From Candidatus Sulfotelmatobacter sp. (GTDB taxonomy: Bacteria > Acidobacteriota > Terriglobia > Terriglobales > Acidobacteriaceae): 42,752 nucleotides of DNA. A program made the position numbers and the translations under genes. Below the pieces are notes generated by a model. That model saw only the letters and a list, made by a program, of their open reading frames with translations, was not told where the DNA came from and did not search any database. The number at the start of each line of letters is the position of its first letter. Positions within the stretch are counted from its first letter, which is position 1. Where the stretch lies: the NCBI GenBank assembly GCA_030041415.1, contig JASHNX010000166.1:1-42752 (forward strand), written 5' to 3'. Of this stretch, positions 1 to 42,475 are shown piece after piece.

Positions 1-965
1 AAGATCTTAAAGATCTCGAATTCGGCCTCCAGCACGGCGTGGATGCTGTCGCTCTCTCGTTTGTTCGCTCCGCCGCCGATGTGGAATTGGTTCGCGAAAT
101 CGTGCGCGGCCACGGTGCAGATACCCCTCTCATCGCCAAGCTCGAAAAGCCGCAAGCCATCGATCACCTCGAGGAAATCCTCGAAGCGGTCGACGGCGTT
201 ATGGTCGCGCGCGGCGATCTCGGCGTCGAAATGCCGCCGGAGAAGATTCCCGCCATCCAGAAACATGTCATCCGCCGCTGCGCCGTCTGGCGCAAGCCCG
301 TCATCACCGCCACGCAGATGCTCGAATCGATGATCGAAAATCCCCGTCCTACGCGCGCCGAAGTCAGCGACGTGGCCAATGCAATTTTCGATGGCACTGA
401 CGCCGTCATGCTCTCCGCAGAGTCAGCTAGCGGAAAATATCCCCGCGAAGCCGTTTCCATGATGTCGCGCATCGTCATCGAGGCCGAAAGCCAGATGGAA
501 GAATTTACCCCTCCGCGCCGCCGCCGTGACCGGCACGGTCTTTCAGTAGCGGAAACGATCTGCGAATCCATCGCCCACGCCGCCGAAGATCTGCCCATGG
601 GCGCGATTGCCGTCTTCACCGAGACCGGCAACACCGCCCGCATGATTTCCAAATACCGCCCCAAGGCCGCCATCTACGCCTTCACTCCCAACATAACCGT
701 CGCCCAACGCACCCACATGTACTGGGGCGTTCACCCTATGAAGTGCGAGCCGAAACTTTCCAGCGACAGCATGGTGGACGTGGCCGAACATGAACTGCTC
801 AGGCGGCGGCTGCTCAAGAGCGGCGACGTGCTCGGCGTGGTCGCCGGCACGCGCCAGGCCTCGGGTTCTACTAACTTCATGCGCTTGCACACTGTCACTC
901 CCGAAGAGGCAGACGCTGTTTTCGTGCCCACGCCCAGGCGCGCCCCTCGCAGCCAGAGACTATAA
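1..965 (+). CDS. pyk: Pyruvate kinase, C-terminal part (5' end outside window)
   Basis: Last enzyme of glycolysis, phosphoenolpyruvate + ADP to pyruvate + ATP, cytosolic. The reading frame is open from base 3, so the gene starts before the window; 320 residues are visible. Seen: the barrel segment with the catalytic Lys region (AKLEKPQA), the metal/substrate strand VMVARGDLGVE, the signature ITATQMLESMI followed by NPRPTRAEVSDVANAIFDG, and the SAESASGKYP loop (Ser where many homologues have Thr, SAET). The C-terminal allosteric-type domain follows (FTETGNTARMISKYRP). The tail after residue ~300 is Arg-rich and probably disordered. The next gene begins 9 bp after the stop. Identity is certain; only the N-terminus is missing. 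Confidence 0.97.
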   Translation, partial: DLKDLEFGLQHGVDAVALSFVRSAADVELVREIVRGHGADTPLIAKLEKPQAIDHLEEILEAVDGVMVARGDLGVEMPPEKIPAIQKHVIRRCAVWRKPVITATQMLESMIENPRPTRAEVSDVANAIFDGTDAVMLSAESASGKYPREAVSMMSRIVIEAESQMEEFTPPRRRRDRHGLSVAETICESIAHAAEDLPMGAIAVFTETGNTARMISKYRPKAAIYAFTPNITVAQRTHMYWGVHPMKCEPKLSSDSMVDVAEHELLRRRLLKSGDVLGVVAGTRQASGSTNFMRLHTVTPEEADAVFVPTPRRAPRSQRL

Positions 966-966
966 T
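961..966 (+). promoter_or_regulatory. Perfect -10-like TATAAT just before a start codon
   Basis: TATAAT overlaps the pyk stop codon and ends 8 bases before the ATG at 975. No good -35 is seen 17 bases upstream. If used, transcription would begin at or next to the ATG, giving a leaderless message. The downstream gene has no well-spaced Shine-Dalgarno (GAGG lies 1 base from ATG), which fits. Confidence 0.3.
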
Positions 967-974
967 CGCGAGGT

Positions 975-1262
975 ATGTCGGAGGAATTCCTATCGGTGGC
1001 AATCTGGCATCCCGCCCGCGGCATGGAGGCCGCTGCGCTCGCCACCGTTCATGAAATCTCGGGCATCGTTGCCCGCAAGAATTATGGCCGCGATCTTCTC
1101 TACCGCAGCGGCTCTTCCTACGTGCTGCTGCGCTACTGGAATTCGGAAGCCGCTCGGCTCGCCGCTCACGAAGATCCCGATATGCTGCGCTGCTGGGCGC
1201 GCCTGGGAAACGAAATTCAGATCGTGAAGGTGTTTGAAAAACTGGAAACGGTCCCGAAGTAG
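975..1262 (+). CDS. Small ABM/Dabb-like hypothetical protein
   Basis: 95 residues, no signal peptide. The pattern, a short strand (LSVAIWHPA), a helix, then FLLYRSGSSYVLLRYWNS-like strands and a C-terminal strand (IQIVKVFEKLE), resembles the small ferredoxin-like barrel proteins of the ABM/Dabb group, but no catalytic motif is visible, so function is unknown. It sits 9 bp after pyk and 13 bp before the hydrolase, so the three may be co-transcribed, although a TATAAT right before its ATG could give it its own leaderless transcript. The ATG has GAGG only 1 base upstream. Confidence 0.75.
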   Translation: MSEEFLSVAIWHPARGMEAAALATVHEISGIVARKNYGRDLLYRSGSSYVLLRYWNSEAARLAAHEDPDMLRCWARLGNEIQIVKVFEKLETVPK

Positions 1263-1275
1263 AGGGTGCATAATC

Positions 1276-1956
1276 ATGCCTCGTCAGCCCGCTCCGGAAG
1301 TTTTCACCGACATCACCGTCGATCCCTTTGTGCGCGGATGGCTTCATCGTCCCGCGGCGGCCAGCGGCGACGTTCTGCTCCTCACTCACGGTGCTGGAGG
1401 CAACTGCAACGCGCCGCTTCTTGTCGCGTTCGCCGAAACTTTCTCTTCTGCAGGATTTCTCGTCCTGCGCTGCGATCTCCCCTACCGTCAGAATCGCCCC
1501 TACGGGCCGCCTGGCCCCGGCGACGCCAAACGTGACCGCGCCGGATTGAAAAACGCCCTTACTGTCCTCGCCAAAATGGCCTCACACCGCGCTTTCATCG
1601 GCGGCCAATCCTACGGTGGACGCCAATGCAGTATGCTTTGCGCCGAACATGAGAACGCCCCCGTCATCGCTGGCCTTCTTCTGCTTTCCTATCCGCTTCA
1701 TCCTCCCGGCAAGCCTGAGCAGCTCCGCACTCAGCACTTCACCGATCTCCGAACGCCAACACTCATCATCCAAGGCACGCGCGACGCCTTCGCTTCCATC
1801 TCCGAGCTTGAGCAAGCCATCAAGCAGATTCCCGCGAAAACCCGGCTCGTGCCGGTCGAAGGCGCAGGTCACGATTTAGGATTCAAAGGGAAAAATAAGA
1901 AAAGCGACTTGCCAAGGAAGATTGCGACGGAATTCGAATCGTTCTTTATGCAGTGA
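1276..1956 (+). CDS. Alpha/beta hydrolase (KANL3/Tex30-like)
   Basis: 226-residue cytosolic alpha/beta hydrolase of the dienelactone-hydrolase-like, KANL3/Tex30 type; substrate unknown. Seen: LLTHGAGGN (oxyanion loop), nucleophile elbow GGQSYGGRQ (Ser), IIQGTRDAF (acid Asp) and GAGHDLGF (His), in the proper order. The reading frame is open from 1234, but ATG 1276 is preferred because GAGGG lies about 9 bases upstream and the product then begins just before the first beta strand. Placed after the small ABM-like gene, probably one transcript with pyk. An esterase acting on small carboxylic esters is a guess from the fold only. Confidence 0.85.
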   Translation: MPRQPAPEVFTDITVDPFVRGWLHRPAAASGDVLLLTHGAGGNCNAPLLVAFAETFSSAGFLVLRCDLPYRQNRPYGPPGPGDAKRDRAGLKNALTVLAKMASHRAFIGGQSYGGRQCSMLCAEHENAPVIAGLLLLSYPLHPPGKPEQLRTQHFTDLRTPTLIIQGTRDAFASISELEQAIKQIPAKTRLVPVEGAGHDLGFKGKNKKSDLPRKIATEFESFFMQ

Positions 1957-1980
1957 GTGACGTCAAAGCTCCCAAAGCCA

Positions 1981-2197
1981 ATGTCATTCCGAGCCGCGCC
2001 GAAGGCATGGCCAGGAACCTGCTTTCGATTCTGCGAATCAACCGCCTACCACGCTTGCCATTCCGAGCGCAGACTGCGCCGCCCAACCCACCAGTAACGC
2101 TTGTCATTCCGGGCACGAGCGTCGCGCTTAAGCCAGCAGTAATCTTTGTCATTACGAGCGCAGCTTTATCGCGCGAGGAACCTGCTTTTGAGGGGCT
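1981..2197. repeat. Array of four degenerate GTCATTCCGAG repeats
   Basis: In the spacer between the convergent hydrolase and rhomboid genes, a GTCATTCCGAGC-like core occurs near 1983, 2063 (GCCATTCCGAG), 2104 (GTCATTCCGGG) and 2149 (GTCATTACGAG). Copies 2-4 are each preceded by a related CC(A/T)..AGTAA/ACCACGCTTG-like stretch, and copies 1 and 4 are followed by AGGAACCTGCTTT. This looks like several units of a dispersed intergenic repeat stacked in one site. No coding potential is apparent. Confidence 0.75.
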
Positions 2198-3043
2198 CTA
2201 ATTCACCCACCCCGATTTCGACCCGCCGTTTCCCTTGCGCGCATCGTCATCCGGAGGAATATAGTTCCCATGCTCGTCGAAGTGCACGTCGCGGTCATGC
2301 TTGCGCATGTAGACTTCAAACTTTCTCGCCGCCCGCCGCCGCCGCCATCGGTAGTATTCATTGCGCATGCTGAAGTACCGCTCTGAAGCCGAGAAGCTCA
2401 GTCCACGGCGCGGCATGAATTTCAAATACAAATATCCGAAGAGCAGTCCGCCCAGGTGGGCAAAGTTCGCGACGCCGCCGGTTTCCTGGATCGCTCCCAC
2501 CAGCGTCAAAAACACAATCCCCCAGACGAAATATTTCGCCTTGATCATGAAGGGCAGCGGAAACATCATGATCTCGCTCTCGCCGTACGTCATGCCGAAC
2601 GCGACCAGCAACCCGTAAATCCCGCCCGAAGCGCCAATCGTCGTGGTCAGCGGGGTTACGCCCGGCAAATGCGCGTAGCTGACTGCCACGGTTGTTACCG
2701 CAGCCGCCACCGTGCAGAAGAAATAAAACTCCAGAAATCGCTGCGATCCCCAATCGCTCTCCAATTGCGAACCGAACATCCACAGCGCCAGCGCGTTAAA
2801 CAGCAGGTGCAGTAAACCGAAGTGCAGGAAGGAATATGTGATCAGCTCCCAGATCATCCCATGCATCACCTGCACGGGAATCAGGCCAAAATAAATGCGC
2901 ACCCAGTAATGCACTTCCGGGGCTGCCAGCTCCAGCAGCGCCATCAGCAAATACACGCCTGCATAAATAAGAATCAGCCGCTTCACCCAGCGGGTGAACG
3001 GTGGCAAGCTCAACGAAAATGTACGTCCGCGACTGAATGCCAC
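2198..3043 (-). CDS. Rhomboid family intramembrane serine protease
   Basis: 281-residue polytopic inner-membrane protease that cleaves transmembrane segments of other proteins. Seen: about six membrane segments between residues 22 and 208, the H74/H79/N83 cluster in HFGLLHLLFN, the catalytic Ser139 in IGASGG, and catalytic His196 in NFAHLGGLLFG. After the last helix comes a cytoplasmic Arg-rich tail of ~70 residues (WRRRRAARK, then acidic/Gly). Start is GTG at 3043, with only a weak GAGA upstream; no better in-frame start precedes the first helix. It faces the upstream hydrolase across a repeat array and follows the M28 peptidase gene by 100 bp. Substrate unknown. Confidence 0.93.
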   Translation of the reverse strand: MAFSRGRTFSLSLPPFTRWVKRLILIYAGVYLLMALLELAAPEVHYWVRIYFGLIPVQVMHGMIWELITYSFLHFGLLHLLFNALALWMFGSQLESDWGSQRFLEFYFFCTVAAAVTTVAVSYAHLPGVTPLTTTIGASGGIYGLLVAFGMTYGESEIMMFPLPFMIKAKYFVWGIVFLTLVGAIQETGGVANFAHLGGLLFGYLYLKFMPRRGLSFSASERYFSMRNEYYRWRRRRAARKFEVYMRKHDRDVHFDEHGNYIPPDDDARKGNGGSKSGWVN

Positions 3044-17843: not shown

Positions 17844-19775
17844 ATGGCCAACCCCGGCGATTTCGCGTACACCGTCAAGCAGCAGGCCGACATCGTCCGC
17901 ATCATCGGCGACTACGTCAAGCTGAAAAAGGCCGGCGCGCAGAATTATTCCGGCCTCTGCCCGTTTCACGGTGAGAAGACGCCGTCGTTTTCCGTGCACG
18001 CCACGCGGCAGTTCTATCACTGTTTCGGCTGCGGCGTCTCCGGAGACGTTTTCAGCTTCGTCCAGAAAATCGAAAACATCACCTTCCCCGAGGCCATTCG
18101 GGTCGTCGCGCAGAAGCTGGGTATCCCGCTGCCGAAAGCAACGTACTCGAATCCCGCGGAAGCCAAGGAAGCAAAGTTGCGCTCGCAGCTTCTCGATGCC
18201 CACGAACGCGCCACCGCATTTTTTCAGGAATGCCTCAATCGCCCCGAAGGCGCCCGCGCCCGTGAATATCTTGCCGGCCGCGGCCTCGACGAAAAAACCA
18301 TCGCCGAGTTCCGCATCGGCTACGCTCCCGATTCCGGCTTCCTCCTGCGTGACCGCCTCGCCAACGAATTCGCCGAAGAAGTCCTGCGCGAAAGCGGACT
18401 ATTTTCATGGAAAGAAGCGCTGAGCGGCGAGCAAAATCAGATTCCTCGCTCCGCTCGGAATGACAAGAGTGAAAATGGTTCGCGAACGACCAACGACCGA
18501 CGACCGACGACGCTTTACTCCAAATTTCGCAACCGCATCATGTTCCCCATCGCCAACGACGCCGGCAAGATCATCGCTTTCACCGGACGCACTCTCTCCA
18601 CCGACGAAAAAGCCGGGCCGAAATATCTCAACTCGCCCGAAACTCCGATCTATTCCAAGTCCAAAGTTCTCTTCAACCTCGATCACGCCAAAGAAGCCAT
18701 CCGCAAGCTCGATTACGCGATCCTCGTCGAAGGACAGATGGATTGCATTTCCGTCTACGCCGCCGGATTTCACAACGTCATTGCCAGCTCCGGCACCGCC
18801 TTTACCGAATTGCAGGCCAAGCTCCTTGCCCGCTTCAGCAAGAACGTCGTCGTCAACTTCGATCCTGATACCGCCGGCGCCAAGGCAACCGAGCGCACGC
18901 TCGGCCTGCTCGTTGAAGAGGAATTTCAGATTCGCGTGCTCACGCTTGAGTCCGGTTTCGATCCCGATCTCTACATTCGCCGCAAGGGCAAAGACGCCTA
19001 CAGTGAAGCTCTCCGCGGCTCTCAGAAATACTTCGATTATCTGATCGAGCGCGCTCGTTCTCAGTTCGCCGCGCGAACGCCTGAAGGCAAGGTCAAAGCC
19101 GTCAACTATCTTCTGCCGCACATCCAGCGCATTCCCAACCGCATCGCCCGCGACGAGCTCGCGCAGGAAATCGCACAGAAGCTCGGCATCGATTCCGCCA
19201 TCCTGCGCCAGGAGCTTCGCCACGTCGCCTCCGATCGCTCGGCCAGTTCGATCAAACCTGCGCAGCAACTCCAGGTCACCGACGCCGAAAAAATCCTCAT
19301 TCGCGCTCTCGCGTCTTCGCGGCAAATGCAGCCCGAGGCCGAGCGTCTTTCCGCGCGTGATGGCGCAGAGGAAGAATTCGATCCCGCGCGTCAGGCCCAT
19401 TACATTCTTCAAGCCGAAAACCTGCATCGGGGTCTGGCTGCCGAATCGCTGATCGAGTCATTGCTCAACGCCGGCGCCGAAACTGCCGATGTGATGGATG
19501 TGCCCCGCTCGGAAGGCGAGCGCCGCATACTGGCCTCGATTTTGTTGAAGGAGGAAGATGAAGAGCTCACCGCCGATCGCCTGGAAGGCGCCGTTCGCGC
19601 CCTCCGTCGCATCCACTTGCGCCGCAAGCTCGAAGAAACCCAGCTCCAGCTGAAGCAGCCCACTCTCGCTGACGATAAGGCACGTATGCGCGAGCTACTG
19701 CTGCAGGTCGAGCGCCTCAGCCGTGCTCTGCGCGATCCTAATCTCGGTGAAGACGAGCTGAAACGAACCGGGTAA
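17844..19775 (+). CDS. dnaG: DNA primase with in-frame dispersed repeat
   Basis: 643 residues. Makes RNA primers for replication. Seen: CHC2 zinc finger C39/H42/C60/C63 (CPFHGEKTPSF, HCFGCGVSGD), polymerase N-subdomain, TOPRIM with E296 (ILVEGQMDC) and D340/D342 (NFDPDTAG), and a C-terminal helicase-binding helical region. Residues ~198-224 (QIPRSARNDK, then SRTTNDRRPTT) are encoded by the reverse complement of the GTCATTCCGAG...GAGGAATCT repeat plus a CGACCGACGA tandem stretch; conserved sequence resumes at KFRNRIMFPI. The insert keeps the frame, so the gene looks functional. ATG lacks a strong ribosome site. Confidence 0.96.
   Translation: MANPGDFAYTVKQQADIVRIIGDYVKLKKAGAQNYSGLCPFHGEKTPSFSVHATRQFYHCFGCGVSGDVFSFVQKIENITFPEAIRVVAQKLGIPLPKATYSNPAEAKEAKLRSQLLDAHERATAFFQECLNRPEGARAREYLAGRGLDEKTIAEFRIGYAPDSGFLLRDRLANEFAEEVLRESGLFSWKEALSGEQNQIPRSARNDKSENGSRTTNDRRPTTLYSKFRNRIMFPIANDAGKIIAFTGRTLSTDEKAGPKYLNSPETPIYSKSKVLFNLDHAKEAIRKLDYAILVEGQMDCISVYAAGFHNVIASSGTAFTELQAKLLARFSKNVVVNFDPDTAGAKATERTLGLLVEEEFQIRVLTLESGFDPDLYIRRKGKDAYSEALRGSQKYFDYLIERARSQFAARTPEGKVKAVNYLLPHIQRIPNRIARDELAQEIAQKLGIDSAILRQELRHVASDRSASSIKPAQQLQVTDAEKILIRALASSRQMQPEAERLSARDGAEEEFDPARQAHYILQAENLHRGLAAESLIESLLNAGAETADVMDVPRSEGERRILASILLKEEDEELTADRLEGAVRALRRIHLRRKLEETQLQLKQPTLADDKARMRELLLQVERLSRALRDPNLGEDELKRTG
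18438..18513 (-). repeat. Dispersed repeat plus ACGACCGACG tandem, inside dnaG
   Basis: Bases 18439-18466 are the reverse complement of the intergenic repeat core (GTCATTCCGAG ... GAGGAATCT without filler); bases 18484-18510 are degenerate ACGACC repeats. The whole stretch is open in the dnaG frame. Confidence 0.8.
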
Positions 19776-38545: not shown

Positions 38546-38590
38546 TGTCATTCCGAGCAAGCCTCTTTTGCGCAGCGAGGAATCTGGGCG
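38546..38590. repeat. Dispersed GTCATTCCGAG...GAGGAATCT repeat
   Basis: GTCATTCCGAGCAAGCC at the left and GCAGCGAGGAATCT at the right, the full intergenic form of the repeat found reversed inside dnaG. It lies in the 223-bp divergent spacer between fabZ and the M20 gene. Confidence 0.7.
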
Positions 38591-42430: not shown

Positions 42431-42475
42431 CGTCATTCCGAAGTCCCGCGCTTTGACCAGCGGGGCGAGGAATCT
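42431..42475. repeat. Dispersed GTCATTCCGA...GAGGAATCT repeat
   Basis: GTCATTCCGAAGTCCCGCG at the left and GCGAGGAATCTCGCGC at the right, in the 184-bp spacer before the DUF4097-type gene. Confidence 0.65.

Follow-up and report, generated by a model that had tools for sequence, protein, structure and literature searches.

A repeat-built, fast-changing linker in the DNA primase of Candidatus Sulfotelmatobacter and similarly arranged heptamer arrays at gene edges

The window, that is, the whole stretch of 42,752 nucleotides analyzed here, carries a dnaG gene on its plus strand (17844..19775) that encodes a DNA primase of 643 amino acids. The frame is free of stop codons over these positions, and the protein matches TIGR01391 (E 8.5e-128 in a profile search) and the Pfam families Zn_ribbon_DnaG, DNAG_N, Toprim, and DnaB_bind. 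Comparison with relatives and an AlphaFold model delimit an enlarged in-frame coding linker (18414..18515, plus strand), corresponding to residues 191-224 and leading from SGLFSWK to YSKFRNR, with 34 residues between SGLFSWK and YSKF. In the model, residues 193-220 have a pLDDT below 50 and lack secondary structure, and they are flanked by strands at residues 187-189 and 224-226. The 5' end of the linker is a degenerate heptamer array (18416..18432, plus strand; AGCGCTGAGCGGCGAGC, about 2.4 units) with a period-7 score of 6, under the cut-off of 8 applied to other arrays, followed by a junction, AAAATCAG, that by eye resembles the junctions of relatives. A dispersed palindromic core repeat found by pattern search occupies 18439..18464 on the minus strand, which reads GTCATTCCGAGCGGAGCGAGGAATCT. 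A tandem CGACCGACGA stretch, pointed out in the earlier note, is borne out as a 7-bp array of AACGACC (3.9 units) at 18485..18511 on the plus strand, ending 4 nt before YSKF. The M of AMYSKF was considered as an internal translation start past this 3' array and rejected, since by eye the codon is ATG in many relatives and ATC, CTT, or GTT elsewhere, as would be expected of a hydrophobic position and not of a start codon. A plasmid search using the insert of the window gave no match.

The 26-mer at 18439-18464 is the exact reverse complement of GTCATTCCGAGCGNAGCGAGGAATCT, and the 4.8-Mb genome to which the window belongs holds 10 copies of it at up to 3 mismatches, with none for the reversed control. 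A form of the core with a variable loop, GTCATTCCGAN{0,30}CGAGGAATCT, has 12 copies in this genome (control, 0), of which 7 read CGTCATTCC and 5, including the dnaG copy, read TGTCATTCC. By eye, the core has a 5-bp stem, ATTCC/GGAAT, that opens with AT and encloses an interior of at least 11 nt. Within the window, the 11-mer GTCATTCCGAG has 8 matches at up to one mismatch against 1.18 expected, and four exact or one-mismatch matches, spaced 45-74 bp apart, cluster at 1983..2177 (plus strand), in the stretch 1983-2185. The repeat in dnaG had been described as the reverse complement of one lying between genes near 38546 and 42431; it is indeed an exact dispersed copy, but those two sites (38547..38585, 39 bp, and 42432..42475, 44 bp; both on the plus strand and outside any ORF of at least 100 amino acids) are variants with a longer loop that have only the ends in common with it. 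The proposal that repeat DNA is translated without a stop within an essential enzyme holds, the frame of dnaG being open and the core reading IPRSARND. Among 18 core sites checked in the same genome, 3 fall within recognizable genes whose frame is uninterrupted (dnaG, a dnaE-type polymerase gene, and a gene for an ASPIC/UnbV protein); a fourth site belongs to an ORF that matches YchF in Pfam, where the core sits in a probable false N-terminal extension. More telling than the IPRSARND core are the surrounding 7-bp arrays and the way in which the linker as a whole turns over through the genus, which a single genome would not have disclosed.

The dnaG search took in 37 of 45 genomes of the genus, including the window's own, and 34 matched the protein; the linker was readable in 30 of the 37, the other seven giving no match, a fragment lacking the linker, or a primase-like protein that is more distant. 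Four of the genomes share their linker exactly with records that bear the name Candidatus Sulfotelmatobacter. Most of the sequences compared come from metagenome assemblies. All 30 readable genes have a long linker of 78-243 nt, and in all 30 its length is a multiple of 3 and it is free of stop codons, in agreement with the earlier suggestion of insert-compatible frames, as are the 3 of 18 core sites with open frames in recognizable genes. The interval from SGLFSWK to YSKF is 8-12 residues in 16 relatives chosen as short-linker cases. Measured from SGL to Y, the length is 14-18 residues in 14 relatives of the Granulicella/Edaphobacter type, 38 in the gene of the window, and 30-85 in the 30 genus genes; several other rows, missed or wrongly measured by the pattern used, were left uncounted. 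Sequences of the same order gave 22 and 24 residues in two pattern-matched cases and about 21-30 in four read by eye, and three further sequences gave 30 (L079), 34 (L093), and 38 (L080). The 27 or so added residues claimed for this linker are therefore right as to an enlarged in-frame segment and too many in number, since the excess is about 22-26 residues over short-linker relatives and 8-17 over same-order sequences. The same-order DnaG sequences L049-L060 have linkers of about 21-30 residues at the equivalent place, without heptamers obvious to the eye, which indicates that enlargement of the loop took place in more than one lineage; together with L079, L093, and L080, they show that a somewhat longer loop predates the genus. 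The hallmark of the genus is thus the repeat content of the loop, and not its lengthening per se. Alignment of DnaG from relatives, proposed earlier as a check, showed the linker at a shared position, long, and with different residues, and not an old conserved part of the protein.

Removal of four duplicates left 39 distinct inserts, 37 of them of at least 60 nt; nine other relatives also yielded a linker by pattern, two of them short. In the 37 inserts, self-match at a period of 7 is 0.418 against 0.235 and 0.224 in adjoining dnaG DNA, whereas a lag of 3 gives no such rise (0.289 against 0.281 and 0.252). Clear arrays stand at the 5' end of 24 inserts, at the 3' end of 32, at both ends of 22, and at neither end of 3, and the sequence of the heptamer varies from genome to genome. 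The arrays lie close to conserved sequence (medians of 8 and 9.5 nt), and the strand found to face outward at intergenic arrays does so in 15 of the 24 5' arms and 26 of the 32 3' arms. The ends of an insert are more complementary to one another within a genome than between genomes (mean score 12.1 against 7.9; 0 of 20,000 permutations), a signal due to 16 of the 37 inserts, which score at least 11; the other 21, among them all seven with an AACGACC 3' arm, score 9 or less, no better than between genomes. Local copying of one arm from the other was considered and rejected: by eye, the arms of 20 array pairs picked by hand from the matches listed are mostly not exact mirrors, so that each arm was apparently drawn from a pool. 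By eye, the inserts of L022, L034, L035, L039, and L040, which represent several species, contain another interior element, GGTGCCCCGTCC...GGACGGACAGGGCGGGGATTT and variants of it; it forms a strong hairpin and reads approximately GAPSxSVRxLDGQ.

These linkers have changed rapidly. On a tree of DnaG built without the linker, the class of the 3' arm changed at least 15 times among 29 labeled genes, against an average of 18.5 changes for shuffled labels, with 14 of 1000 shuffles at 15 or fewer, which points to weak inheritance combined with fast turnover. For example, L018 and L023 are 92% identical in the dnaG flanks and have almost no local similarity between their inserts, and another pair, 93.5% identical, has its arms in common and differs by a middle piece that carries the core. 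Three heptamers, counted in 45 genomes of the genus, were tested against the pool of the genome (a fourth was counted but left out of the test). With the dnaG copies subtracted, and across 30 genomes, a heptamer was more abundant in the rest of the genome where dnaG contained it than where dnaG lacked it (CGGGCTT, p 0.0003; GACTCNGG, p 0.009; AACGACC, p 0.04), p values that ignore kinship and rest on presence patterns fixed after the inserts had been inspected. Exceptions run in both directions, G013 and G027 having 28 and 15 copies of CGGGCTT and none in dnaG by pattern, and G024 and G000 (the window's genome) carrying the heptamer in dnaG and nowhere else. In the latter genome, the single double unit of AACGACC is the dnaG copy, and for this reason the insert of the window may be a relic. 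The AACGACC double unit, the sole heptamer searched class-wide, occurs in 36 of the 45 genus genomes against 10 in a sample of 200 from the class; of these 10, 2 belong to this genus and 2, with several copies, to another genus of the family. A filter by stop codons acting on the inserts failed in a first test (p 0.14), and a post hoc version gave p 0.005 on 6 cases.

Heptamer arrays are also found outside dnaG. A 247-kb sample of G018 has 13 arrays of period 7 and 0-3 at each remaining period between 4 and 13, but 13 at period 14 and 10 at period 15; a sample of G035 has 4, similar to or fewer than several other periods, and a 249-kb sample of the window's genome has 1. Pairing was scored for three heptamers (7, 7, and 5 genomes), with same-strand arrays up to 60 bp apart merged and neighbors counted within 300 bp; among the matches listed, neighboring arrays were inverted relative to each other, always in the same order (18 + 7 + 2 = 27 of 27), and same-strand pairs did not occur. 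Two of the 27 pairs come from dnaG itself, as the inserts of G036 and G029, and the check for an intergenic position covered part of the rest. A crude rule that takes the longest ORFs as genes placed 11 of 46 arrays in 60 loci within long ORFs and 35 between them. For these 35, read on the AACGACC or AAGCCCG strand, the gene edge under the same crude rule lies a median of 8 nt away on the outward side against 115 nt on the inward side, and it is within 20 nt outward for 24 of them (18 at 0-20 nt and 6 overlapping) against 3 inward. Other heptamer families, oriented by purine content, gave medians of 8 and 93 nt by this rule, the outward edge being nearer in 14 of 19, in a test that was not blind because several of the arrays had previously been viewed by eye. 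Of 83 arrays, 23 have an ORF-opening ATG no more than 45 nt away (random places, 17%; other side of the array, 6 of 83), and any start codon is as near in 31 of 83, against 39% of random places. With this link to start codons weak and with arrays adjoining stops as well as starts, the gene edge itself, whether start or stop, seems to count for more than translation initiation. Two heptamer hairpins of G018, 2.6 kb apart (L166:14364-14450 and L166:17011-17098), have nearly identical arms and related loops, which suggests that copying of the whole element is possible.

Similar inserts are present in several other housekeeping genes. Ten long ORFs from G013, G018, G025, and G010 that overlap or touch arrays were scanned against Pfam; three had no family, and seven were assigned to RsmH, Der, MnmG, ribonucleotide reductase, a DnaE-type polymerase, RibH, and MoaA, with the array near one end of the ORF in the last three. 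The RsmH region was readable in 14 of 30 loci, three of which lack an insert and the others of which have arrays, some together with the core; in RsmH of L287, GGTCGTT and AACGACC arms enclose native coding sequence and not foreign DNA. It is of note that in the window's own genome a dnaE-type polymerase (PHP, DNA_pol3_alpha; L007, G000:C236, ORF 3-1853, minus strand) carries the core in frame as EIPRFPRNDK, and in its PHP match 164 profile positions are spread over 207 residues. An ASPIC/UnbV FG-GAP protein of this genome (L008, G000:C140, ORF 172-3024, minus strand) has core-like copies in frame and the heptamer-like RPTGEDQRPATT, a composite that resembles that of DnaG. The RibH proteins of two species (L163:8137-8802, minus strand, G018; L260:1370-2512, minus strand, G010) have a C-terminal extension consisting of a heptamer array and a core-like repeat, the assignment to lumazine synthase resting on a Pfam match for L260 and on inspection by eye for L163.

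Taken together, these data make it probable that a permissive surface loop of DnaG has been refilled repeatedly from the repeat pool of the genome, with selection acting mainly on the reading frame. This reading takes up the observed position, frame, composition, and turnover of the insert, its partial match to the genomic heptamers, and its resemblance in layout to intergenic arrays and to the inserts of other coding sequences. The loop would be a translated, unstructured segment filled with repeats arranged as they are in those intergenic spacers of the host genome that carry repeats, with 7-bp arrays at the edges, one strand of which would tend to face outward to conserved DNA, and with a replaceable interior that may often be a short palindromic repeat. 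Once repeat-bearing, the loop may have had its contents exchanged and re-expanded many times with heptamers common in the host genome, versions that break the frame or carry a stop presumably being purged by selection. We infer that the loop has little effect on primase function and is near neutral, although neutral drift alone fails to account for the lack of a single short linker among the 30 readable genus genes. Exchange would proceed by copying or by recombination between arrays, and the mover might be a transposase of the REP type (Y1). Of the 45 genus genomes, 43 have Y1_Tnp matches, 4 of these matches being in the window's own genome, which makes such a REP-like mover possible at most. 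The window's genome is itself a poor example of the phenomenon, because it has no AACGACC double unit outside dnaG and the folding of its insert is not unusual.

Of the other explanations, the one that survives best, though it is unlikely, is that the insert is kept for the function of its peptide, as a disordered loop that modulates how the primase binds helicase, SSB, or DNA and in which only length and hydrophilic composition matter. The residues S, A, R, G, P, D, and E together make up about 70% of the inserts, and W and C are missing, a disordered-like composition; the consistently long linker of the genus, together with the somewhat longer linkers of same-order relatives, would also fit. 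The residues are, however, unconserved even where the genes are 92% identical outside the insert, and similar peptides appear in unrelated enzymes. Slightly less likely still is a function at the nucleic acid level, in which a coding hairpin would pause translation or stabilize the dnaG mRNA, so that complementary arms would be selected and would change together. The 16 inserts with complementary ends agree with it, as do the absence of short linkers in the genus and the 15 of 37 inserts that fold far better than their shuffles (z < -3), against 0 of 37 equal-length dnaG controls; on the other hand, 22 of the 37 fall short of this threshold, the ends are non-complementary in 21, and the intergenic arrays lie at starts and stops, including those of divergent genes, where one transcript spanning both arms would not be expected. 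A hairpin in the RNA as a general feature of the inserts was rejected for the insert of the window itself (z -0.5). We further disfavor, as improbable, one ancient insertion of a single palindromic element that has since decayed lineage by lineage: the one fixed site, the same orientation of the core in many genomes, and the GC-AAA(A)-n-CAG junctions that by eye are similar among inserts would be in keeping with it, but close relatives differ in both ends and interior, the arm class has changed at least 15 times, and the arms tend to match the heptamers of the present genome. An intein, an intron, or a translational bypass element, absent from the product, might be suspected from an insert in an essential gene with a hairpin in some genomes, but is very improbable, as all 30 readable linkers are in frame and stop-free, the Pfam search of the window's DnaG found no intein (Hint) domain, and self-splicing introns are longer than this insert.

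Repeated refilling of the DnaG loop might be one case of something wider. We consider it possible, and put it forward only tentatively, that a process in this genus handles unconstrained DNA as capped cassettes whose content, from one cap to the other, is exchanged en bloc, the outward-facing heptamer arrays tending to mark the junctions of free and conserved DNA at gene starts, at gene stops, and in a protein loop. If so, the primase loop would be a spacer inside an essential gene that is refreshed by the machinery of intergenic spacers. Some 30 essential primases sharing one fast-changing loop built of repeats make up a natural series, in which the old question can be tested directly whether a protein is harmed, helped, or left unaffected by repetitive or selfish DNA, and the dnaG loop is a natural test of how repeats may remodel an essential enzyme without breaking it. 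Outward arrays that hug gene edges provide a simple rule that may help locate the exchange of spacer DNA in bacteria.

Several elements of this picture have precedents. Rickettsia palindromic elements (RPEs) are described as sequence families of about 105-150 bp present in many unrelated genes, where they are read in frame in conserved housekeeping proteins and apparently tolerated (PMC10969869, PMC2229807). Like them, the dnaG insert lies in frame within the gene of a conserved protein and leaves the frame open, but its edges are 7-bp arrays that differ by species, its interior is variable, and it occupies one site throughout a genus of soil bacteria; the dnaG inserts do not form one family of about 105-150 bp with long terminal inverted repeats. 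GTAG/CGTC-tagged REPs are reported to be translated within genes, many of them for DNA synthesis or repair and including DnaE2; in recB of two Xanthomonas species, different REPs stand at about the same site, and between convergent genes most REPs lie within 20 bp of the 3' ends (PMC3733652). In the CGTC-tagged family, an unpaired CGTC tag is found at one end, the stem opens with complementary AT pairs, and the loop is 4-5 nt (PMC3733652). The core described here differs in being flanked by heptamer arrays, which are found at starts too, and in its short stem (5 bp by eye); the part of that report dealing with intragenic REPs makes no mention of DnaG (PMC3733652). The TAACTGA direct repeats of Beggiatoaceae, for which the report places most copies in one genome several nucleotides upstream of start codons, with related 7-mers intermixed, and which it sets beside Cyanothece strains that differ by 7-nt indels (PMC4679880), have the same tandem 7-bp period. 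They are, as reported, one heptamer traced through several phyla, whereas here the unit is specific to the genome, neighboring arrays form inverted pairs, and the arrays face stops as well as starts, some of them inside essential genes. In the mitochondria of Nematomorpha, inverted repeats are translated inside protein-coding genes with both arms encoding conserved protein (PMC6649704); in contrast, the arms here encode an unconserved loop. Our search of open-licence papers for heptamers of acidobacteria, for repeats of Sulfotelmatobacter, and for the sequence of the core showed nothing on this subject among the papers listed. In the sources cited, in-frame palindromes (Rickettsia), REPs in replication and repair genes (several phyla), and heptamers at start codons (Beggiatoaceae) are thus already known; the combination of genome-specific heptamer arrays facing outward at gene edges with a like cassette at a fixed primase site across a genus is apparently unreported in the open-licence literature, and it joins what have been three literatures, on palindromes within genes, on REPs in replication and repair genes, and on heptamers at gene edges.
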